Below the pieces are notes generated by a model. It made no database searches, was not told the origin of the DNA, and was given only the letters and a program-made list of their open reading frames with translations. From a virus: a stretch of 21,165 nt of DNA. How positions within the stretch are numbered: the first letter of the stretch is position 1; the number at the start of each line of letters is the position of its first letter. The stretch lies in IMG/VR virus record IMGVR_UViG_3300017786_000184, positions 1 through 21,165 of that record; one strand, 5' to 3'. A program made the position numbers and the translations under genes. Below are positions 2,603 to 21,006 of this stretch, in pieces.

Positions 2603-2604
2603 TT

Positions 2605-2618
2605 CCCGATTATACCAC
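2605..2618 (-). promoter_or_regulatory. putative late promoter, extended -10 (copy 1)
   Basis: The minus strand reads GTGGTATAATCGGG, with TGG-TATAAT forming an extended -10. The same 14 bases occur at 15753-15766. It lies between the stop of the 113-residue gene and the ATG of the GNAT-like gene. No convincing -35 is seen. Expected transcription starts at or within a base or two of the ATG. Confidence 0.55.
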
Positions 2619-9364: not shown

Positions 9365-9598
9365 CTAATTTTGTATTCTAACCTCTGTCCAAGTTTCTGG
9401 GGTTTCTGTTACCGATGACCATGTCTCATCTGACTCAGTCACCGCTGTCCATGACTCTGTATCTTCTGTTACCTCAACCCATGTTATACGTATTACTGAT
9501 AACATTTGAGTTGATTCCCTGCTTAATGCAGAGCCTGAAAGAAGCCTCGTTGCAGTTTGGTACTTTCCGTAGTCATATAAATATACACCGTACCTCAT
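9365..9598 (-). CDS. Trp decapeptide-repeat protein
   Basis: A 77-residue protein whose C-terminal half holds four exact ten-residue spaced tryptophans (W40, W50, W60, W70) in units of the form TW-x-x-VTE-x-x-E: TWVEVTEDTE, SWTAVTESDE, TWSSVTETPE, TWTEVRIQN. The N-terminal part (MRYGVYLYDYGKYQTATRLL) is ordinary. Similar W/VTE repeats are seen in small proteins of marine phage tail operons, but no function is known to me. The ATG overlaps the TGA of the previous gene (ATGA). Confidence 0.75.
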   Translation of the reverse strand: MRYGVYLYDYGKYQTATRLLSGSALSRESTQMLSVIRITWVEVTEDTESWTAVTESDETWSSVTETPETWTEVRIQN

Positions 9599-10673: not shown

Positions 10674-13600
10674 TTAGTTAGCTATCTGCAGCAAGCCTTG
10701 GTTAGCCTCTGGCAATAATGGTATTTCTACTTTTGGTGTTTTAGGCTTTAACGGTAAATAGAACGTCAAAGCACCCATAGCAGCTAATGCAGCGTAACCA
10801 ATTCTTGGTGCTACCTCTTCCTGCACAGGTTCAGGCAGTGAATAGTAAACATCTTGTATTTGCGTAATTCTTTTTGCTAAGTTCTCTTTGATTGAAACAT
10901 TTGTCAGTGGATCAGGCGTATTCATAACGAAATTTATAGCAGGCATCAATACTTCACCAGCTTGCTCGCCTAACAATGCTGCAGCGTCTTTTGTAGATTG
11001 ATTATAATCACCAAAGAAACTAGGCTTGTCCATCTGAGCTTGGAATCGGCCAGATTCTGGCTCGATTGCGCTGCCTAAGCCGCCAACAAGCATCCTAAAT
11101 CCATCTTCAAAGGTTCTAGCTACTAGCCTTGCTGCATCTTGTAATGCCTCAGCCTCAACCTTAGCTACGACAGCAGGTCCATATTCGTATGTGCTACTAG
11201 GTGGTGCAGCGAGTTTTTCCAAGACAGGTTTTGCTTTTTGTATTGCTGCATTAGATTCTTTAGCTGACTCGGTGATTGGCTTGCTTACAGATATATCGTC
11301 AAATAAACCATCAGTGTCTGCATACGGCCCTAATATCTCTTCAACAAGATTATCATAAATAACCAACTGTCTTTCTTGAGGCACTGTTGCCCCAGCGTAA
11401 TTTTCCGAGGCAAAAAGCGGAGTTTCATCTACTGGCTCGCCAAAAAGACCTTTCCTTAAAGGTATACTACGCACCTCATCTCTTAACTCTACATTCCTCG
11501 CCTCTACTTCTCCTGCAGTGTCTGTGTATACTCTGAATGGCGACAATATTTCATCTGGATTAAGATTACGCTGCACCTCTCGCATCTTTTCGTTTATCAA
11601 ACCACGATTTTTTTGTGTTCTTAAATCTCCAGCTGCTTGTGCCTCTTCTATTGTGCTTTGTGAAATATCTCCTTGTTTCAAGGCAGCCTCATACTTCGCA
11701 GCTAATGCAGTCAATCTATCTATTTCAGCCTGACCGCCCTTATTAACATACTGATCAGAAATTGTTAAAACTTGATCAATGTACTCTGGATCAGAACCAC
11801 GAGCAAAACCTTCACGCGCTTGTATTGCGTGCTGCAGCTCATGCAGTAAAAGACTTCTAAATTCTTTTTGTGTAACGCCTGCCCCTATATATATTTTATC
11901 TGCACCACCAAGGTAATAGGCTTCGTTGGGTGGCAACTCATTAGTAATAGCAACCTTTATATCCTTTAAGCTGCCAGCAACGCGAGAGCCGCGCACTTTT
12001 TCATCAGCATCCAAGTCACCGTAATCAGCCAAATATCTAGGCTCGCCATATTTTTCTATAAGATCAGACTGCTCCATCGTTAGTGGTTCACGCGGCATAC
12101 CGTACCTATCCGCATAATGCCTATCGTCAGCAATATCCTTTAATTCTTTTGGCTGGTACTGATCTAACAGCTCTGGGTCGTCAAAAAACTGCCACAATTT
12201 ATATGTTTCTTCTGTAAGATCGTCATCAGTAGCACCTACAAGCTCAATTCTTTCTGACAAAAAATCTATAAGGTTATTCTCTTCTAAAAAATCTAAATTG
12301 ATTTTGCTGTTTGTGTTTGGTAGCTCTGTACGCCATTTGTTGTCAGCACCGCTTCTCTCCCATCCTGTTGCACGAAATATGCTTGTCTTGTCTTGCCCTT
12401 CATCTTCCATGCGTTTAGCGGTTTCTAGCATATCTTTTCTGCTGAATCCTAGCTTAGAAGCTAGGCCAACAATTGATGCATCAGCCTCTTCAGACTGCCC
12501 TGCAGCCAACAAACCACTAGCACCAGCTACACCTGTGACACCTGACATTATGTTTGATGACTCGTCATCTAAACCTGCAGCGTTAACGGACCTAATATTC
12601 TTACCATCTAATGCTATGTAGCTATACTGATCCTCGCCAAACATTGGCTTGCCATCTGGCCTTTCATAAAGATTTGTATATCTAATAGTGTCGTAACCAG
12701 AATCCTTAATTGCTTTTCTAATCCTACCTAGATATTTTTTATTGAGATCAGAATTCATGTAGCCAAACGGTTGCAAGTCACCTGTTGTTTCATATTCTTT
12801 CAACGCTTTATTAGTTAAGGTTGGTGACTTTAGGTTTTCTTTGCGTCTAACTTCTACAATTTCATTTTTGATTTCTGTAATATTTTTTATAAGTTTTTGG
12901 AATTTAGGGTCATTACTGTGTAGCAAGCTACCCTTTTCAATGTTCAATATACCGTTAATAACTGTGTCCGATTCATTCCAATTACCAAAATCTGGCAACT
13001 CAAGCACCTCACCTTTTTTAAGATAAAAAGGCATTATCCTTGATTCTGTTCCTGCTATTGGAAAAAACTCACCCTCAGCTGGCTCAACAAATAGATTAGG
13101 GTCATCTGGCAGCGTATCGCCATCTTCAAGATCATATGGGAAAGCCTTTGATTTTAGTCGCTCATTTGCATGGCCTTTTGCACCAACATGGAAACCAATA
13201 TCATTTTGAAAAAGGTCCAAATTATCATCATCAAATGTTTCAGTGCCATGATAGTAAATGTTATCGGTGTCAAAACCTTTGTCTGCCAGCCTAGCAACAC
13301 TTGGCAGCTTGGCTAAAATACTGGCATCAGTATCCTCAGATTGAGCTGCAGTTAATAAACCAGTAGCTGCTGCTGTGCCACCAAACCCAGCCAAGATATT
13401 ATCAGTGTCATCTTGTTCGCCTTTTGCATTAACTGATCGAATATCTTTTGGATCAAACATTGCCAGTGTTGTTTGCACACCATCATCATTTTCTGCAAGC
13501 AACATACTGTCGTAACCTTTTTCTTTTAAGAAGTTTACAACTTCAGGCTTTTCATAGACTAAATACTTGCCTTTTCGATATGCGTCTATTACATAGGGGT

Positions 13601-15233
13601 CTTTTGTTTCGTCTAAAAAAAACTGCCCTGTAGGGTTATCAAATTGATCTAAAACTGGTTGTTCACCGCCTTGTAATTTAAGTATCTCATCTACAATTTC
13701 TGGTTCGTTTTGCGGATCAAATGTCTTTTTGGCTCTCGTAAAAACAGGGTAAATTGAACTGTCTGCCATTCTCTCGGCTTCAATAAATTTTCTACGTTCA
13801 GGGTAATAAACTTCTTGGTAATATTTGCTTTTTTCTTCTTCAGTTGTTATCTCTTTTATTATTTTTTCATGCTTTTCATCAAAGCGTTTTCTTTCGGCTT
13901 TTAAGCTGTCAAGTGTGCTTGTGTCACCCTGCCTCTCTGTAAATTTGCCTTTACCTAACCAGTCGTTAGCAAACTGTGGGTCTGGCGTTAAAAATATCAA
14001 TCCGTCGGAATAGCCAGCTTTAAACTTATCTATGTCTTGTTTGCTGGCATGATAAAAAACGCGGTCGGTGTTGAAGCCTTTTTCTTTGAGTTTAGAAATA
14101 TTAGCTAATTTTGCTATAGGATTAGCATCCGCCTCTTCGCTGCCTAACGCTGCAGCTCCCAGCAAACCTAATGATGCAGCAGTAGCTAATGGATTTGCGC
14201 TTACCTTAATACCTTTAGCTTCTAACCTACGCAGCAAGTCTTCATCAATAATACCGCCATAAGGTGACACTTCAGCTGCTCGCCTCATATCGCTAAACGC
14301 TTCTCTTGGCCCAGAATCACCCATGCTTAAGGGTCGGCCATAAATACCACCATCAGATTTGTATTGTGCAGTAGGGTCTAAATCTATGAGAGTTGCATCA
14401 GTGTCTAACCGCCCGATAAAGTCGCCAGCAACAGCGTCTGGATAAATAATATTGCCCTGACCAGATAGGTTGCCAGCATCAACATCAAGCAAGCCAACAT
14501 TTTGGAATCCCATCGTAGGTGCAGTTAATTGTGATGGATCAGCGATTGCAAGCCTTGCCTGCGGTAAAGATATGCCACCCTTATCTCGGTAGCCCTTGTC
14601 CATTATCTGCTGCTGTATAAATTTTCTGACTCTATCAGGCTGCATAGCGATTTGTGCTGGTGCTCTTGGGTCGTCGATACCAACAAAATCTGGCACTCTA
14701 TCCCTTATATCAGCATTGAGTTTTTTCTTAACAGCTGCAGGCATATTAGCCGACGCATAAGACATCATAACGCCAGATGTCATTTCACCAGAAAAATCAC
14801 TGCCTGAAGGTGTCATTCGCCAATTAATGAGCGCAGGGTTTCTGCCATATTGTTGTTTTAAATTTGAACCAGCTTGCAGCATTTGATTTATAGGGATTGT
14901 CCCAGATGCCCACAACGGACCATCTTTCATAAAGTCTTGGCCGCCAGTTAGGCTTACTGGATAGGCTAAATTTTTATCCCCGATACCTACTACCTGACCA
15001 CCTGCTGCTGTACGGTCAGACATTGTTGAGAGATATGGGTAGCCTTCTAGGTCGCTAAGTGTAACTGTTGGCGAAGCATCATAACCGCCCTCAACAACAG
15101 GCTTGCCATACTGATCTCTGGGCTTAACCTTCGGCACACTTCTAAGCTCAAAGCCTTCGTCATATTCTTCAGGCTCAAATATATAATCAAGTATACCTTT
15201 CGCTCTTGCACCGATGCCTTTTGCTTTTGACAT
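10674..15233 (-). CDS. large polyvalent protein: two ADP-ribosyltransferase-like domains plus HExxH protease-like domain
   Basis: A 1519-residue protein, starting at the ATG at 15233 (an upstream ATG at 15326 would overlap the 88-residue gene). Order of parts: conserved N-terminal region about 55-340 (YPYLSTMSDRTAAGG); ART-like domain 1 from about 391 (RVFYHASKQDIDKF, GLIFLTPDP) to 602 (DIRSVNA); ART-like domain 2 from about 658 (NIYYHGTETF) to 884 (NIRSVNA); then an LPD23-like segment (FRATGWERSGADNKW, about 953-967) leading to LLLHELQHAIQAREGFARGS (1128-1147) and AGEVEARN (1240-1247). HELQH with the later Glu suggests a gluzincin-like zinc site. A hydrophobic stretch lies near 1478-1494. 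Families of polyvalent ART and protease domains act on host proteins after injection; that role here is inferred. Confidence 0.8.
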   Translation of the reverse strand: MSKAKGIGARAKGILDYIFEPEEYDEGFELRSVPKVKPRDQYGKPVVEGGYDASPTVTLSDLEGYPYLSTMSDRTAAGGQVVGIGDKNLAYPVSLTGGQDFMKDGPLWASGTIPINQMLQAGSNLKQQYGRNPALINWRMTPSGSDFSGEMTSGVMMSYASANMPAAVKKKLNADIRDRVPDFVGIDDPRAPAQIAMQPDRVRKFIQQQIMDKGYRDKGGISLPQARLAIADPSQLTAPTMGFQNVGLLDVDAGNLSGQGNIIYPDAVAGDFIGRLDTDATLIDLDPTAQYKSDGGIYGRPLSMGDSGPREAFSDMRRAAEVSPYGGIIDEDLLRRLEAKGIKVSANPLATAASLGLLGAAALGSEEADANPIAKLANISKLKEKGFNTDRVFYHASKQDIDKFKAGYSDGLIFLTPDPQFANDWLGKGKFTERQGDTSTLDSLKAERKRFDEKHEKIIKEITTEEEKSKYYQEVYYPERRKFIEAERMADSSIYPVFTRAKKTFDPQNEPEIVDEILKLQGGEQPVLDQFDNPTGQFFLDETKDPYVIDAYRKGKYLVYEKPEVVNFLKEKGYDSMLLAENDDGVQTTLAMFDPKDIRSVNAKGEQDDTDNILAGFGGTAAATGLLTAAQSEDTDASILAKLPSVARLADKGFDTDNIYYHGTETFDDDNLDLFQNDIGFHVGAKGHANERLKSKAFPYDLEDGDTLPDDPNLFVEPAEGEFFPIAGTESRIMPFYLKKGEVLELPDFGNWNESDTVINGILNIEKGSLLHSNDPKFQKLIKNITEIKNEIVEVRRKENLKSPTLTNKALKEYETTGDLQPFGYMNSDLNKKYLGRIRKAIKDSGYDTIRYTNLYERPDGKPMFGEDQYSYIALDGKNIRSVNAAGLDDESSNIMSGVTGVAGASGLLAAGQSEEADASIVGLASKLGFSRKDMLETAKRMEDEGQDKTSIFRATGWERSGADNKWRTELPNTNSKINLDFLEENNLIDFLSERIELVGATDDDLTEETYKLWQFFDDPELLDQYQPKELKDIADDRHYADRYGMPREPLTMEQSDLIEKYGEPRYLADYGDLDADEKVRGSRVAGSLKDIKVAITNELPPNEAYYLGGADKIYIGAGVTQKEFRSLLLHELQHAIQAREGFARGSDPEYIDQVLTISDQYVNKGGQAEIDRLTALAAKYEAALKQGDISQSTIEEAQAAGDLRTQKNRGLINEKMREVQRNLNPDEILSPFRVYTDTAGEVEARNVELRDEVRSIPLRKGLFGEPVDETPLFASENYAGATVPQERQLVIYDNLVEEILGPYADTDGLFDDISVSKPITESAKESNAAIQKAKPVLEKLAAPPSSTYEYGPAVVAKVEAEALQDAARLVARTFEDGFRMLVGGLGSAIEPESGRFQAQMDKPSFFGDYNQSTKDAAALLGEQAGEVLMPAINFVMNTPDPLTNVSIKENLAKRITQIQDVYYSLPEPVQEEVAPRIGYAALAAMGALTFYLPLKPKTPKVEIPLLPEANQGLLQIAN

Positions 15234-15237
15234 TACA

Positions 15238-15504
15238 CTACCACTTTGTACGATTAGCCCAGTAAGCTGCTGACATCTTGCCTTTCTTGATGTTCTTAGC
15301 GTGTCTGGCTTTGAATGATTTAGCACGTTTGGTCATGGTCTTGTCGCCAGTTTTACCCTGCTGACCGAACCGTATAGTCTTCACCTCGTCGCCATCCTTA
15401 GCCACCACAACGTGCGATTTAGTTTTATGGCTTGGTGTGCGCTTAGGTTTGTTAAAGCCGCTAACGCCTGCCCTAGCCAATCTAGGGTCTTTTTTCTTAG
15501 GCAC
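15238..15504 (-). CDS. basic conserved phage protein (DUF6321-like)
   Basis: An 88-residue, strongly basic protein starting at a GTG, six bases after the TTA stop of the tiny peptide gene begins and with AAAGGG nine bases upstream. The sequence VSGFNKPKRTPSHKTKSHVV, then KTIRFGQQG and KARHAKNIKKGKMSAAYW, is typical of a small family common in marine phages, which I recall as DUF6321, though I cannot check. Function unknown; nucleic acid binding is plausible from charge. It sits in a run of three basic genes between the large terminase and the polyvalent protein. Confidence 0.75.
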   Translation of the reverse strand: MPKKKDPRLARAGVSGFNKPKRTPSHKTKSHVVVAKDGDEVKTIRFGQQGKTGDKTMTKRAKSFKARHAKNIKKGKMSAAYWANRTKW

Positions 15505-15752: not shown

Positions 15753-15766
15753 CCCGATTATACCAC
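15753..15766 (-). promoter_or_regulatory. putative late promoter, extended -10 (copy 2)
   Basis: The minus strand reads GTGGTATAATCGGG, identical to the copy at 2605-2618. The TATAAT hexamer overlaps the terminase TAA stop. A transcript starting about 7 bases downstream would have a short leader with GGGAG before the 53-residue basic gene. No clear -35. Confidence 0.6.
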
Positions 15767-17038
15767 GCCTTGGATATTTCTCTTAATAGGCGTTCCCCAA
15801 TCTCTTTTGGGCTTGTTGCCTACAGCTAGATACCTGAATGCATCTGCAGCGTGTGATGTCCAATCATGCAGCGGCCTGCCACGAAACGATTGATTCTTCT
15901 CATCATAGTCACGACGGTACTGTGACAAACAGTCTATACCCCTGCTGCACTTTTCCTTGTCAAACCAGCAAGTAGCAAGCATGGACCTTGATGCCTGTAT
16001 ACCATCATCAATCATCAGCTGCGGAGCTATCGTGATGGGCCTTACGCCAAGATTACCCAGAGTTTCTAGCCTAGACTTGCCTGTGCCTAACTCTCTCACC
16101 CTGACATCGTGCGGCAGCACATGGTCGCCATACACATAACCTTTGCTGTTTAATACTTGTACATAGTGGTCCAGACCAACACCGCTGCACTCGTAGTAAT
16201 CTATCAGCCTAACCTCTGCACCAACAAACTGAGCGAACCAGATAGCTGTAGAATCGCCAACACCTAAGTCCCAAGCCGTCGTAACAGGCACAGCAGGGTC
16301 GTAAGGCACTGCAGCAATACGATTAGACTGCCTGCAATCACGCATCTCTGTGGCGTAGTATGCACCGTCTACATGGACCAAAAAGTCGCCTTCCCAAATA
16401 TGGTCATAGGATTCAGGTCGCAGGTTAAAATCTTCTTGTCTAGCGAGCTCTAGCACATTAGGAAAGAATGGATTATCACGCCAGTTGATCTCACATATCT
16501 TCATGCCATCAGGCGATGACTCCCTGAATCGTTTATGCGTTGATGAATTTTTGTTCTCTGGATTCCATGTTACCCATATCTCTGAGTTTTCTTCTCGGAC
16601 CGTAGGGATTAATTTGGACCATGCAGTCTCTGTAACGCCCTCTGCCTCATCTACCCAGCACAAGAGTATCTTTGCCTTAGACTTGATGGAATCTAGGTTA
16701 CGACGCAGCCCAGAGAACGTGTAAGTGATCTTACCGTCTTTGGACCTGATGTAAGTTGCACCTATCTCATAGTAGTCAAGTAAGAAGTCGCAGCTCCTGA
16801 TGGCCGATTTAACCTCCTCTAGCGACGATTCTTCTAGGCTGTTCAAATGCTCACGCCCACAGAGAATCTGTCCCTGACGGCCTTCCATGCCCCACATATA
16901 CCCTCTTACAGCTGTCATCAGTGCAAAGCTAACAGTCTTGCCTGATCCACGACCACCCCATGCACACCGATACCTAGCATCACCTTGAAATAGGCTGACT
17001 AGTTTGGGAGGCAGCTGAATGGTAGCAATGTTAGTCAT
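15758..17038 (-). CDS. terL: terminase large subunit
   Basis: A 426-residue DNA-packaging ATPase/nuclease of the Terminase_3 (Sf6-like/PBSX-like) kind. Walker A is GGRGSGKT (28-35) with the preceding CAW. Walker B is ILLCWVDE (124-131), with D130 and E131. A coupling motif VTWNP is at 156-160. The C-terminal nuclease shows WDLGVGDSTAIWF (D257), LPHDVR (D311) and HDWTSHAADAFRYL (D399) as the metal-binding acids. The ATG at 17038 overlaps the end of the small subunit by eight bases. The motor moves DNA into the prohead and cuts the concatemer. Length is usual for the family. Confidence 0.95.
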   Translation of the reverse strand: MTNIATIQLPPKLVSLFQGDARYRCAWGGRGSGKTVSFALMTAVRGYMWGMEGRQGQILCGREHLNSLEESSLEEVKSAIRSCDFLLDYYEIGATYIRSKDGKITYTFSGLRRNLDSIKSKAKILLCWVDEAEGVTETAWSKLIPTVREENSEIWVTWNPENKNSSTHKRFRESSPDGMKICEINWRDNPFFPNVLELARQEDFNLRPESYDHIWEGDFLVHVDGAYYATEMRDCRQSNRIAAVPYDPAVPVTTAWDLGVGDSTAIWFAQFVGAEVRLIDYYECSGVGLDHYVQVLNSKGYVYGDHVLPHDVRVRELGTGKSRLETLGNLGVRPITIAPQLMIDDGIQASRSMLATCWFDKEKCSRGIDCLSQYRRDYDEKNQSFRGRPLHDWTSHAADAFRYLAVGNKPKRDWGTPIKRNIQGVV

Positions 17039-17447
17039 TAGGTGTCTCAGCAGCCACTAGCTGCACAATGGTGGGCTTAAATGTCTGGTCGCTAGATGTT
17101 ACATCTACAGAGGATTTGTCACCCCACTTCCTTGGTGTCATTCTGGCACACTTCCACTTGCGTGAATCTATACGCAGCTTAGCTCTAGCAATCTCATTGT
17201 TGTCGGCTGCTTCTGATAGCTCATCAGCTAAATCAACCACTTCATCCGCATAGAAGTCTGCCTGATAGTCTCTGGCCCTCGCGTACTGCTCCGAAAACTG
17301 CTGCTTATCGGGCTCAGTAAGCCATTTCATTAGGGTAGACATTGATGGCATATTGTCATCACGACAGATTTGTCGGGCAGATTCGCCTAGGGAAAGGCGG
17401 TAACAGATAGTGGAGGCTAACTCTTCAGTAAAAATAGATGGTCGCAT
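17031..17447 (-). CDS. terS: terminase small subunit
   Basis: A 138-residue protein starting at the ATG at 17447 (an upstream in-frame GTG at 17453 is possible). The N-terminal region LASTICYRLSLGESARQICR with MSTLMKWL is a helix-turn-helix of the kind that binds pac/cos DNA in small terminases. The middle (ARARDYQADFYADEVVDLAD) is helical and oligomerising, followed by RIDSRKWKCARMTPRKWGDK, which is a signature of this family. The gene overlaps the large subunit by eight bases and follows the 59-residue gene with a GTGA-type junction. Confidence 0.9.
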   Translation of the reverse strand: MRPSIFTEELASTICYRLSLGESARQICRDDNMPSMSTLMKWLTEPDKQQFSEQYARARDYQADFYADEVVDLADELSEAADNNEIARAKLRIDSRKWKCARMTPRKWGDKSSVDVTSSDQTFKPTIVQLVAAETPND

Positions 17448-17449
17448 GG

Positions 17450-17629
17450 TCACTCACAGATACAGACTATTTCATAACAGGTGCACTTCTTGCTGATTTT
17501 ACCACAGGCTAGGTAATATGTATCGTCTAAGGCCATACGGTCCTTCTCAGATAGTGCAGCTGCGAATGCGTTGATCAAGTCAATAACGGATTCGTCGATG
17601 TCGTAATCATCCGCATTCAGCTGCAGCAT
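17450..17629 (-). CDS. small Cys-cluster protein (59 residues)
   Basis: A 59-residue protein from the ATG at 17629, chosen because AGAGGTGACC precedes it at a good distance. A GTG at 17635 would add two residues. The N-terminal 40 residues are acidic and helical. The C-terminus has five Cys in YYLACGKISKKCTCYEIVCI (C42, C49, C51, C56, C58), suggesting a small zinc-binding fold. No family is recognised. A possible promoter for the terminase genes lies inside this gene at 17494-17505. Confidence 0.65.
   Translation of the reverse strand: MLQLNADDYDIDESVIDLINAFAAALSEKDRMALDDTYYLACGKISKKCTCYEIVCICE
17494..17505 (-). promoter_or_regulatory. putative late promoter, extended -10 (copy 4)
   Basis: The minus strand reads GTGGTAAAATCA. 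It shares its first 11 bases with copy 3 and lies 48 bases upstream of the terS ATG, inside the 59-residue gene. Because it is inside a coding region it is the weakest of the four copies. Confidence 0.35.
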
Positions 17630-18358: not shown

Positions 18359-18793
18359 CTAGTAATTATAAAATTCAGCGCGATGATCGCGTGTATTTCG
18401 CTCATAGCTCTCGAAGTATTTTTTAGAGCAGCGGCTGTAGTAGATTGGGCCTTCAAGCCACTGGTACTCCTGCTCGCGGTGTGCAAGGTAGGCACGATAG
18501 CTTGAAAACCTCTTAACATCGTTAACCTCAAACTGGTCACAATCACTTGAAGTGTAATGGAAATACACAGGCATAGGGTTTAATTTCTTAAAAAACTCAC
18601 AAGTGTTGTAACGTATGTCTGACAATGTTGGTGGTCTAACGACAAACTTTTTACTGCCAATAGTAAAAATCCATTTATTTCGGCTCATGTTATTTGCAAA
18701 AATTCGGAATGGACCTGCAACCAAATCAAGGTGGTAACGGTCGCCCTCTGTTAGATATAAAAACTGCATGCCTAAAAATTTGATATTCTTCAT
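18359..18793 (-). CDS. hypothetical early phage protein
   Basis: A 144-residue protein from ATG at 18793 with a strong site TAAGGAGATAAGTTAATG. It is rich in Tyr, Phe and Arg (YRAYLAHREQEYQWLEGPIY, YSRCSKKYFESYERNTRDH). The first 60 residues have alternating strands (DRYHLDLVAGPFRIFANNMS). No motif or family is recognised. It lies among small early genes and is followed ten bases later by the next gene's start. Confidence 0.65.
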   Translation of the reverse strand: MKNIKFLGMQFLYLTEGDRYHLDLVAGPFRIFANNMSRNKWIFTIGSKKFVVRPPTLSDIRYNTCEFFKKLNPMPVYFHYTSSDCDQFEVNDVKRFSSYRAYLAHREQEYQWLEGPIYYSRCSKKYFESYERNTRDHRAEFYNY

Positions 18794-18805
18794 TAACTTA
18801 TCTCC

Positions 18806-19015
18806 TTATTTGTAAAATCCGACAAGCTGGCCTCTAGATATTGCTGCATGACGATTAATATCTCTGGCAATGTCTGATGGCTTAGCAGGGCCGCTGACAA
18901 TCTTTATGTCACGCGCTTGGACCGTAACACTATGATGGAATTGCTTAGCATCAGTAAACTCAGTGACGCTGCCAGAACCATCGACGAAATTTTGCACTAT
19001 TAATTTATGTTTCAT
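18806..19015 (-). CDS. small hypothetical early protein (69 residues)
   Basis: A 69-residue protein with N-terminus MKHKLIVQNFVDGSGSVTEF followed by a His-containing region (KQFHHSVTVQARDIKI) and a C-terminal helix (PSDIARDINRHAAIS). No family is recognised. The start at 19015 is fixed by the shared leader (ACTACGGAGAGACACATATG) eight bases upstream. Confidence 0.65.
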   Translation of the reverse strand: MKHKLIVQNFVDGSGSVTEFTDAKQFHHSVTVQARDIKIVSGPAKPSDIARDINRHAAISRGQLVGFYK

Positions 19016-19020
19016 ATGTG

Positions 19021-19032
19021 TCTCTCCGTAGT
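19021..19032 (-). promoter_or_regulatory. shared leader/RBS element, variant copy
   Basis: The minus strand reads ACTACGGAGAGA, matching the 13-base leader (ACTACGGAGAGTA) in its first 11 bases. It contains the GGAG ribosome binding site for the 69-residue gene. Confidence 0.65.
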
Positions 19033-19041
19033 TTGCATAAG

Positions 19042-19059
19042 ACGCACCCTAAGATGCGT
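19042..19059 (-). other. short hairpin in the leader of the 69-residue gene
   Basis: On the transcribed strand ACGCATC and GGTGCGT form a 7-bp stem (one G-U pair) around TTAG. It is in the 67-base gap between two genes, just upstream of the leader element. No U-run follows, so it is not a clear terminator; it may be a transcript-stabilising or regulatory stem. Confidence 0.4.
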
Positions 19060-19082
19060 TTCGGCTAATAAAGCCTCGTCAA

Positions 19083-19340
19083 TTATGCTAAGTCTATTTC
19101 TGGCCGACCTTCTCTGTCGCCATCATACCAGCTCATAACTGTATTTTGATCCCACTGGTCTAGCTCGAAAAACTCAACGTCATCTTGTGGCGTATCTTCG
19201 CTGTAAAGCTCAAAGGAATAGCTGATGTTACGCGATGAATCATAAAAGTTAATAATTCGATCGTCTTCTGAAGATGCGGTAATGACCTGCTCACCATTAT
19301 ATGTTCTGCCAGTTTTAAAAGTAATCGTTTTCATGTTCAT
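19083..19340 (-). CDS. small acidic hypothetical early protein
   Basis: An 85-residue acidic protein beginning MNMKTITFKTGRTYNGEQVI. The first half is beta-rich (DDRIINFYDSSRNISYSFEL) and the second half is Asp/Glu-rich (DVEFFELDQWDQNTVMSWYD). It resembles small phage proteins that can mimic or mask nucleic acid by charge, but no family is recognised. The first ATG at 19340 is eight bases after GGAG in the shared leader; the second ATG two codons later is too far. Confidence 0.65.
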   Translation of the reverse strand: MNMKTITFKTGRTYNGEQVITASSEDDRIINFYDSSRNISYSFELYSEDTPQDDVEFFELDQWDQNTVMSWYDGDREGRPEIDLA

Positions 19341-19344
19341 TTTT

Positions 19345-19357
19345 TACTCTCCGTAGT
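19345..19357 (-). promoter_or_regulatory. shared leader/RBS element
   Basis: The minus strand reads ACTACGGAGAGTA, the exact 13-base leader also found at 20281 and 20511. It carries GGAG for the 85-residue gene. Confidence 0.7.
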
Positions 19358-19378
19358 TGATTTAAATTACCAGTGTTT

Positions 19379-19407
19379 ATTTAAGCACAGGTAACTGTTA
19401 CTTGCAA
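19379..19407 (-). promoter_or_regulatory. putative early promoter P2 with dyad
   Basis: The minus strand has TTGCAA (-35-like), then the dyad GTAACAGTTAC directly next to it, then TTAAAT (-10-like) at a 17-base spacing. It matches the strong promoter at 20548-20575 in 14 of 17 bases over the -35 and dyad, and its dyad lies 33 bases before the shared leader, as against 35 in that one. It is inside the 3' end of the 68-residue gene. Both hexamers are weak. Confidence 0.5.
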
Positions 19408-19587
19408 GTCTTTGCGTTCGATAAATTCAGATCGGACCTTCCAATCGCAGCAGCCAGAGACAATGTAGCTATCAATGGTGCAGTGTGGGTGTCCGTAGAG
19501 GATGGATTCGCCAGCTTCAAACCTTACAGTCATCGGCTGGCATGGTTTTTCGCAGCATTCACAGATGGTCGTGTAATGACCGAACAT
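19381..19587 (-). CDS. small Cys/His cluster protein (68 residues)
   Basis: A 68-residue protein with TTICECCEKPC (C9, C11, C12, C16), a HPHC (H33, H35, C36) and a GCC (C46, C47), arranged as in small zinc-binding folds. The start ATG shares a base with the preceding TAA (TAATG), so translation is coupled. No family is recognised. Its 3' end contains the putative promoter P2 and its dyad. Confidence 0.65.
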   Translation of the reverse strand: MFGHYTTICECCEKPCQPMTVRFEAGESILYGHPHCTIDSYIVSGCCDWKVRSEFIERKDLQVTVTCA

Positions 19588-19964
19588 TAATGGGTGTCCT
19601 GCTTTTCTAAATCTTCCAGCAGCACTTCTTGCTCAAGAGAATACTCATAATGTGCTTTGTCCCACGTTTTAACAGCCGTCTCATATACGCTGGTAATAAA
19701 AGCTGCACGATCCGCATGATAACCATGCTCCATCCAGCCTCGCACCGATACTTCAAGCTCATGCTGGTAGTAGCCTTGTTCGGCAGCAGCTGACATATTG
19801 TTGCCTCGATCATCAGATGGCTGCTCTTCATCGTAACCCAGTGCCTTGCCGAGCAGAGATACGCTGCCATTAACACCTCGATAAGTGTCCTCAACAAGTT
19901 GTCTGGTTTCTTCCAATGCAGCGGTAGCTGCAGCTAAACGATTTTTTATGTCACTGTTATCCAT
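19587..19964 (-). CDS. hypothetical helical early protein
   Basis: A 125-residue, mostly helical protein (DIKNRLAAATAALEETRQLV at the start, then acidic helices ending YSLEQEVLLEDLEKQDTH). The middle (MSAAAEQGYYQHELEVSVRG, WMEHGYHADRAAFITSVYE) looks like a conserved small phage protein, but I cannot name it. The ATG at 19964 has a strong site AAGGAGATATATCATG, which lies inside the last codons of the gene upstream (eight-base overlap). Confidence 0.65.
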   Translation of the reverse strand: MDNSDIKNRLAAATAALEETRQLVEDTYRGVNGSVSLLGKALGYDEEQPSDDRGNNMSAAAEQGYYQHELEVSVRGWMEHGYHADRAAFITSVYETAVKTWDKAHYEYSLEQEVLLEDLEKQDTH

Positions 19965-20277
19965 GATATATCTCCTTATATCTATCTTCGATTTGGTCTA
20001 AATATTGGTTTGCAAAATCCCACAAAACAGAACCGCCAGAATCATTGCAAGTGTCAATTATATCCATTGCAGCTTCATATGTCATTTCGGGTTTTTTAGT
20101 TAAGGCAGCCTTAAACAACTTAGTTAATGCTGCAGGCTCTAGGCTATCCATTAGGACATCTTCCCAGACTTCTATAAGCCTGTCTTCAGCACCAGCCAGC
20201 CACGCCTTGAGAAATACTTCACAAGCTATGTTAGTTGACCATTCTTCTGGCCTACGCTGATATTTTTTTACTATCAT
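19957..20277 (-). CDS. hypothetical early protein (106 residues)
   Basis: A 106-residue protein beginning MIVKKYQRRPEEWSTNIACE. The start at 20277 is chosen because the shared leader with GGAG stands seven bases before it. A GTG upstream would read through the C-rich tract into an artificial Pro-rich extension. The protein is helical (AEDRLIEVWEDVLMDSLEPA, LTKLFKAALTKKPEMTYEAA) with acidic C-terminal half. No family is recognised. Confidence 0.65.
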   Translation of the reverse strand: MIVKKYQRRPEEWSTNIACEVFLKAWLAGAEDRLIEVWEDVLMDSLEPAALTKLFKAALTKKPEMTYEAAMDIIDTCNDSGGSVLWDFANQYLDQIEDRYKEIYHG

Positions 20278-20280
20278 ACT

Positions 20281-20293
20281 TACTCTCCGTAGT
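20281..20293 (-). promoter_or_regulatory. shared leader/RBS element
   Basis: The minus strand reads ACTACGGAGAGTA, exactly as at 19345 and 20511, followed by AGTATG of the 106-residue gene. GGAG is the ribosome binding site. Confidence 0.7.
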
Positions 20294-20324
20294 GGGGGGG
20301 GGGATGGGGGAGCTTTCACTCCCC
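20294..20324. other. C10 tract and GC hairpin in an intergenic leader
   Basis: On the coding strand a 6-bp hairpin (GGGGAG, loop TGAAAG, CTCCCC) spans the stop of the 62-residue gene and is followed by CAT and a run of ten C. The other strand shows G10, AT, G5. The hairpin GGGGAG could instead pair with the C run. The homopolymer could be partly an error. Confidence 0.45.
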
Positions 20325-20504
20325 GCTGATTAACTCTTGTCTTGGCTTTACGTTATGTGGTGCGTAATTTTGGATTCTCGGTCCGATGCCATGTAAGGTT
20401 TCGCATTTTATTCTTTTTGGAGTAAATCCAACTACTTTACTCATAACCCAACAATCATCATCTATATCAGCTAATTTAACCCAAACTTTGTCGCCTACTT
20501 TCAT
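20316..20504 (-). CDS. small SH3-like early protein (62 residues)
   Basis: A 62-residue protein, MKVGDKVWVKLADIDDDCWV at the start and RIQNYAPHNVKP near the end. KVGDKVWVKL and the final NYAPHNVKP are typical of small SH3-like barrel proteins in phages and plasmids. A nucleic-acid or protein-binding role is possible. The start at 20504 follows the shared leader GGAG by ten bases. An upstream ATG at 20588 would run through the promoter region and is rejected. Confidence 0.7.
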   Translation of the reverse strand: MKVGDKVWVKLADIDDDCWVMSKVVGFTPKRIKCETLHGIGPRIQNYAPHNVKPRQELISGE

Positions 20505-20510
20505 TTTTTT

Positions 20511-20523
20511 TACTCTCCGTAGT
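20511..20523 (-). promoter_or_regulatory. shared leader/RBS element
   Basis: The minus strand reads ACTACGGAGAGTA, with GGAG ten bases before the ATG of the 62-residue gene. It lies about 20 bases downstream of the likely +1 of the strong promoter. Confidence 0.75.
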
Positions 20524-20547: not shown

Positions 20548-20575
20548 ATTATATAGGAGTAACCGTTACTGTCAA
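20548..20575 (-). promoter_or_regulatory. consensus sigma70-type promoter P1
   Basis: The minus strand has TTGACA (20575-20570) and TATAAT (20553-20548) with a 16-base spacer, both exact consensus. Predicted start near 20541. The NinG stop codon TGA lies inside the -35 hexamer. It drives the genes that read leftward from 20504. Confidence 0.8.
20558..20570. promoter_or_regulatory. 13-bp palindromic operator in the P1 spacer
   Basis: AGTAAC-C-GTTACT is a perfect inverted repeat of six bases around one base, lying between the -35 and -10 of P1 and overlapping the end of the -35. A repressor bound here would block RNA polymerase. The core GTAAC-N-GTTAC recurs at 19391-19401. Confidence 0.65.
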
Positions 20576-21006
20576 CACTTTTGCCCAATTCTTTTAAGAT
20601 TATCGCTAACTTGTTGTTTCCAATCGTGTAATAAGTCTTCTAGCTCCACCCTGTTTAGCTTACTTGTCACGTTTTTCTGCAGCATCTCATCAACCTTTTC
20701 ACGACCGTACATATCCACCATGTAGAGCGTGTAAGCCTTCTCAGTGTTACCGTATTTCATACCAAAGCCGTTGCAGCCTTTGCATTGCGGATGCACGTTT
20801 TCCTCTACTAGAGCCCACATATTTCTACCGCCTTGGCCCTTGGCTACAAAATGACCGCCATCCATATTGTCGTTCCATTGCCTTACCACGCCACAAGTCA
20901 CGCAGCTGCAATATCCGTCGTCGTCGGCTGCCTTCAGCCTCACAAGCTGCTGTAGGACCTCTAAGCACTGCTTACGCAGTTGCTGTACGGTTTTCTTTTT
21001 GGGCAT
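20572..21006 (-). CDS. ninG: NinG/Rap-family HNH recombination protein
   Basis: A 144-residue protein matching NinG (Rap) of lambdoid phages: basic N-terminus MPKKKTVQQLRKQCLEVLQQ, then DGYCSCVTCG (C33, C35, C38), DGGHFVAKGQGG (H52), and ENVHPQCKGCN (N70, H72, C75, C78), a zinc-stabilised HNH-like motif, then the helical segment GNTEKAYTLYMVDMYG. Rap acts on Holliday junctions and branched DNA in lambda, so a role in recombination or replication intermediates is likely. The start at 21006 overlaps the gene upstream by 35 bases and lacks an obvious site. Its stop lies in the -35 of P1. Confidence 0.85.
   Translation of the reverse strand: MPKKKTVQQLRKQCLEVLQQLVRLKAADDDGYCSCVTCGVVRQWNDNMDGGHFVAKGQGGRNMWALVEENVHPQCKGCNGFGMKYGNTEKAYTLYMVDMYGREKVDEMLQKNVTSKLNRVELEDLLHDWKQQVSDNLKRIGQKC

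Follow-up and report, generated by a model that had tools for sequence, protein, structure and literature searches.

What does a 13-nt leader do, when it stands before several unrelated small early genes of a marine phage, beyond binding the ribosome? We analyzed this question in a 21,165-base IMG/VR fragment (record id G000; the whole stretch is called the window here), whose main genes are on the minus strand according to the ORF list. The leader ACTACGGAGAGTA was detected on the minus strand in exact copies at 20511-20523, 20281-20293 and 19345-19357, and with two end changes, as ACTACGGAGAGAC, at 19020-19032 (numbered below as copies one to four), confirming the three exact and one altered copies of the preliminary description. 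The 13-mer is an RNA-level tag, more than a ribosome site. The best reading of the data is that a CsrA-type translation operator, to which we give a probability of about 0.6 with CsrA binding predicted from the leader sequences, belongs to a system that the whole family shares, with early genes that can be exchanged behind a single conserved promoter.

Leader copies, relatives and the early gene block

The 11-mer core ACTACGGAGAG has four copies in the window versus 0.01 expected from shuffles (0/100 shuffles reach four), all of them 4-7 nt 5' of an ATG (gene starts 20504, 20277, 19340 and 19015). GGAG is a normal Shine-Dalgarno and the AC-rich bases upstream of it are presumably unstructured, as would suit a strong ribosome site of the usual kind, retained by chance or through a general start preference; the count of exact 11-mers makes this very improbable, and the paired flanks described below disfavor it as well. 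Pairing of the ACTAC prefix with 16S rRNA was rejected by reasoning, since the prefix precedes the Shine-Dalgarno and its partner bases would fall past the end of 16S rRNA. An extra copy of the 13-mer with one mismatch (9561-9573) is intragenic and at chance level, 3.4 matches being expected in the window at up to three mismatches. The starts 19964 and 18793 have related leaders with the loop AAGGAG instead of ACGGAG, so that six block genes share the leader feature; the four genes described initially are those that share the 11-mer.

No near or distant DNA relative was found among named phages, the nearest named large terminase being ~50% identical, and the TerL search of a GTDB-species genome collection gave three distant MAG matches and no host. 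Relatives were collected from IMG/VR by large terminase (best 80 of 191 stretches). The closest among these 80, G001 (35,294 bases, terminase 85%; its DNA appears under several locus ids and was counted once), contains three copies of ACTACGGAGAG and one of GCTACGGAGAG, each before a gene start, and ACTACGGAGAG was absent from the 39 other records searched. The third phage, L169, was found by the joint promoter and leader pattern, and the window, G001 and L169 are referred to as clade A. No such promoter or leader was found after NinG in the NinG relatives (loci L195-L211). The IMG/VR search for the 13-mer followed by ATG detected 82 stretches, most of them probably chance matches since the one recognized relative among them is G001's own record (L114); L111 had two matches.

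The block on the minus strand opens with the sigma70-type promoter TTGACA-16-TATAAT (20548-20575), followed by copy one and the first gene (20316-20504, 62 aa, MKVGDKVWV), whose Shine-Dalgarno lies under the ACU[ACGGAG]AGU hairpin (loop in brackets here and below) suggested by covariation and the location test. The hairpin GGGGAGUGAAAGCUCCCC with a GAAA loop (20307-20324, folding z -1.2) is upstream of copy two, and G001 has the GAAA-loop hairpin GGGCCGAAAGGCCC at the same place before its second gene (L168:8336-8351, z -3.1). A run of ten G on the plus strand (20294-20303), between the GAAA hairpin and copy two, could be slippery, phase-variable or a sequencing weakness. The block continues with the second gene (19957-20277, 106 aa), the leader UAU[AAGGAG]AUA (19969-19980), detected in the start survey, a related hairpin with another stem for which RNAfold favors GAUAUA[AGGAGA]UAUAUC, and the gene of this leader (19587-19964, 125 aa). 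The weak promoter-like element TTGCAA-17-TTAAAT (19379-19407) contains the palindrome GTAACAGTTAC (19391-19401), and G001 has a full promoter at the equivalent place. Copy three precedes an 85-aa gene (19083-19340); copy four, with the 2-bp stem CU/AG, precedes a 69-aa gene (18806-19015); and the leader AAU[AAGGAG]AUA from the start survey (18799-18810), also with a 2-bp stem, precedes the last block gene of this kind (18359-18793, 144 aa). Pfam, PHROG and PADLOC gave almost no matches for the cargo proteins. Protein matches identified the NinG-like gene (20572-21006) and the small (17031-17453) and large (15758-17038) terminase subunits on the minus strand. The 1550-residue ORF at 10674-15326, in which repeated LLAAGQSEEADASI-like segments lie between stretches of distinct sequence, has the look of a composite virion protein.

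The candidate hairpin and phage CsrA

The leader ACTACGGAGAGT can fold as ACU[ACGGAG]AGU, with a six-base loop over the Shine-Dalgarno. The suggested further role of the ACTAC prefix, as a translation operator, gains support, because the prefix is complementary to what follows GGAG and the partner co-varies in the sister phages. The loop is kept in clade A while the stem varies on both sides (ACU/AGU, AUU/AAU, UAA/UUA, UAU/AUA). Conservation of the prefix in relatives, proposed as its critical check, was found in altered form: the clade keeps the pairing rather than the letters, and distant relatives use another leader.

Fifteen clade-A leaders, 14 of them distinct, were aligned in register (alignment A2), comprising, for the window, G001 and L169, those early-block starts that have an ANGGAG loop, together with the repO start of G001, and omitting the L169 repO site (same hairpin letters) and an ACGGAA site (L168:6143). 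Of the cells for the three pairs, 88.1% are paired versus 57.4% in shuffles, and the covariation score is 0.744 versus 0.174 in shuffles and was reached by 0/500 of them; relatedness inflates these shuffle results and is retained in the control with the partner slid, where 28-55% of cells were paired. The two inner pairs are unbroken (28/28 cells, with 2 and 3 pair types) and the outer pair is broken in 5/14 sequences. Several tag copies descend from one another and are thus not independent. The AUU/AAU site of G001 and L169 overlaps the last coding bases of the gene before it, with the changed bases at third codon positions, and, as read from the sequence, AAC/GAG to AAT/GAA would be silent. 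Two further G001 genes are preceded by UAA/UUA and UAA/UUG stems, the second being an ArdC anti-restriction gene. The tag of the G001 replication gene falls within the last codons of a Cro/CI-like gene (L168:4910-5128, minus strand, ending VNYGERK), so that one stretch is coding sequence, ribosome site and possible hairpin.

According to free energy, the 3-bp hairpins are unstable alone and mostly marginal or not the best predicted fold. The A(N)GGA motif is at or over the Shine-Dalgarno in six window leaders, and its position in a six-base hairpin loop on a short stem is indicated by covariation and weakly by free energy. Published CsrA SELEX sites have six-base loops and stems of mostly at most 4 bp, and the RsmE loop is ANGGAN, as described in the available part of PMC7652899; the site rules also draw on PMC4066749.

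The hairpins are concentrated at gene starts. ANGGAG with a stem of at least 2 bp was detected at 15/21 start-proximal sites of clade A versus 5/30 away from starts, and at 7/57 start sites of ten csrA-less relatives (p 1e-6 versus the 15/21 of clade A); for ACGGAG in clade A the counts were 13/13 at starts and 1/8 elsewhere. The ORF-based start survey gave 17/33 for clade A versus 17/109 for csrA-less phages (p 6.6e-5), and 10/24 versus 16/91 (p 0.016) when each distinct 12-mer was counted once; genes in the start surveys came from a simple ORF script, and the counts vary slightly by edge and duplicate rules. One of the 17 clade-A survey sites, at window 15238, is among late genes and looks like chance.

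The proposed check for a phage RNA-binding protein had a positive outcome in the two sister phages. Both G001 and L169 encode a 68-residue CsrA; the G001 protein belongs to the family by its PF02599 match (75.9 bits versus the cut-off of 27, E 2.4e-21), and its residues 1-55 can be aligned with CsrA of solved structure. CsrA was found in 2/46 records searched, both of clade A, and in 0/44 others. These two are the clade-A records covering the replication region, and 12 csrA-less records hold both flanking genes, repO and ssb, so that the absence of csrA at that place in 12 relatives is real. The csrA gene is one gain by descent, and its coincidence with hairpin leaders therefore counts as a single event. 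The csrA place lies beyond the end of the window, and csrA of the window phage is thus predicted.

This last point could favor another reader, the hairpin being real and read by host CsrA or another RNA-binding protein, or serving as a decoy by which CsrA is drawn off host messages. Most gammaproteobacteria have CsrA. Such a reader is improbable in our estimate, since both sister records covering the region carry csrA, and the decoy form is disfavored by the search for sponge RNA, which found neither an Rfam match nor ANGGA motifs clustered as densely as they are in sponge RNAs. The other mechanism suggested at first, an RNA-processing or RNase site, found no support in the analysis.

The leader of clade-A csrA itself, AGU[AAGGAG]UCA, is without a stem (0/2 clade-A csrA genes with at least 2 bp). 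A general rule that csrA phages have such leaders was not supported, as only one of 12 other csrA-bearing phage sets was enriched for hairpin starts (L193, p 0.008, uncorrected) and 11 were not, suggesting that in many phages CsrA may act on host messages. The csrA gene's own leader has a stem of at least 2 bp in 5/12 sets (L189, L190, L191, L193 and phi297), and in L193, a viral contig, csrA and one other gene have UCU[AAGGAG]AGA in common in their leaders (L193:10001 and L193:17758). H82 (Acinetobacter) was excluded from the csrA set, as the record resembles a bacterial contig, and H90 and H69 (L235, L236), whose csrA leaders mark them as close to duplicates of the 431E45.1 and F116 types, were outside the survey.

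The palindromic promoter and gene exchange

The promoter upstream of copy one reads TTGACA-GTAACGGTTACTCCTA-TATAAT, with the perfect palindrome GTAACGGTTAC (20559-20569, minus strand), a probable operator, as spacer. Two of the four tag copies are behind a GTAACNGTTAC-palindrome promoter, the one at 19379-19407 being the weak, promoter-like element. The TTG...GTAACNGTTAC...TATAAT element recurs in many relatives, in 28 distinct modules after removing identical copies, and the first genes of these modules belong to 20 blastp families. Several palindrome-bearing lineages keep, in distant form, a small Cro/CI-like gene next to the replication gene, and its product probably reads the GTAACNGTTAC operator.

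The element GTATAATC was detected in the window at 2603-2615 (minus strand, in the form GGTATAATCGGGAAATG) and is similarly placed before the small gene upstream of terminase in relatives such as L008, L020 and L023. It ends ~5-8 nt 5' of the ATG, which would place the 5' end of the transcript at the ATG or close to it, and a leaderless mRNA is possible at these sites; the octamer of the site is at chance level in the window alone (2 seen versus 0.67 expected).

Each lineage has its own leader repeated before several block genes. The csrA-less relatives have lineage-specific leaders (CACACAAACGAGGA, AAGGGGAACAAAATG and ACAAATAAATAAGGAGAC) before gained or lost genes, with no ANGGAN hairpin, and leader repetition alone hence needs no CsrA. 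Among 14 modules of clade B, the stretch of leader between palindrome and ATG averages 91% identity (91/91 pairs at least 80% identical); for the first 90 nt of the genes, only 2/91 pairs are at least 80% identical. L011 and L013 have identical flanks and differ by one gene, whose presence or absence is bounded exactly by two copies of TAAGGGGAACAAAATGAAAA; the gene that is first in G001 is missing in L169 exactly between two ACTACGGAGAG copies, and L023 and L028 show gene gain or loss likewise at AAACGAGGA. The MxxGDKVWV family follows the first promoter in the window but the second one in G001. These phages also encode an annealing protein of the Rad52-like type, which could join short repeats. 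The preliminary suggestion of a shared start region of cassettes is thus borne out by the common leader before unrelated genes and by the indels that end at leader repeats.

The same observations, from the repeated leaders of csrA-less relatives to the mostly unrelated clade-B gene starts, the indel ends and the Rad52-like protein, could mean that the leader is a cassette seam and nothing else, a start region spread by duplication and recombination and read by no protein. We consider this unlikely, as it leaves unexplained the change of the stem on both sides of a constant loop and the presence of ACGGAG hairpins at starts only and in the csrA-bearing clade only. On the preferred reading, a CsrA-type operator within the exchange system, the tag also acts as a seam, because each gene has its own copy.

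In the mechanism that we propose, ACU and AGU would close the ACGGAG loop holding the Shine-Dalgarno in the mRNA, as in a CsrA/RsmE-type ANGGAN hairpin. CsrA made by the phage during infection would bind leaders such as ACUACGGAGAGU RNA, exclude ribosomes and jointly turn down the block of small early or anti-defence genes, giving repression and timing. Transcription of the block would be set by the promoter with the GTAACNGTTAC operator, probably via the Cro/CI-like protein, and recombination between tag copies would add, drop or swap genes with the start signal retained. An ArdC-type anti-restriction gene (L005:530-1381; PF08401, PF18818) in the G001 block behind the second promoter bears the hairpin, suggesting that the block serves counter-defense. 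More tentatively, and at somewhat less than even odds, the whole may be a self-contained phage regulon, in which a portable CsrA hairpin with its ribosome site provides a repression switch and a recombination seam to each incoming gene.

Relation to known systems

The candidate operator resembles the sites of CsrA/RsmA/RsmE repression in its six-base ANGGAN loop, short stem and Shine-Dalgarno overlap, as far as these are described in the part of PMC7652899 at hand, and a CsrA-family protein is encoded by two sister phages. Known targets in that text are host genes, many of them multi-site (PMC7652899), whereas the candidate regulon here consists of the phage's own early genes, mostly with one predicted site each.

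The Start-Associated Sequences of cluster K mycobacteriophages are, in the available parts of the reports, a 13-bp repeat with a Shine-Dalgarno before many non-structural gene families (PMC3203893; PMC12699233), and the window tag is likewise a short repeat with a ribosome site before many gene families. The same parts give them no known reader and no CsrA link (PMC3203893; PMC12699233). They differ in their hosts and in their consensus, GGGATAGGAGCCC, which the window tag does not match at up to two changes. In the clade of the window tag, unlike in the Start-Associated Sequences, partner bases co-vary and a candidate reader protein exists.

PeSL elements reportedly combine an early promoter with a terminator stem-loop, whereas the seam here consists of the leader with its ribosome site and extends as far as the ATG. 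A terminator-like hairpin precedes the promoter in L008, and by eye none was seen before the window promoter at 20548-20575. The likeness to the T4-type PeSL is in conserved early promoter elements where genes shuffle (as cited in the available part of PMC4503421). In several lineages of the phages studied here, small early genes are exchanged at the very signal for translation start.

Anti-defense genes of archaeal viruses also have one conserved early promoter region before many small genes (PMC11065993, in part); these early regulatory sequences belong to viruses of archaea, and the available part of the report describes no RNA-level tag (PMC11065993). The start-signal tag provides a sequence handle for finding anti-defense genes, one tagged gene being the ArdC anti-restriction gene.

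Our database search found csrA in 85 phage records. The gene is known in phages with its role unresolved, and loss-of-function tests are still needed, according to the accessible part of an earlier survey (PMC7366521). The titles and abstract openings of the CsrA-phage literature matches listed included none on targets of phage CsrA within the phage. Unlike that survey, as far as its accessible part goes (PMC7366521), the analysis here names candidate targets of the phage protein, providing a concrete candidate target set for phage-borne CsrA inside the phage's own genome.
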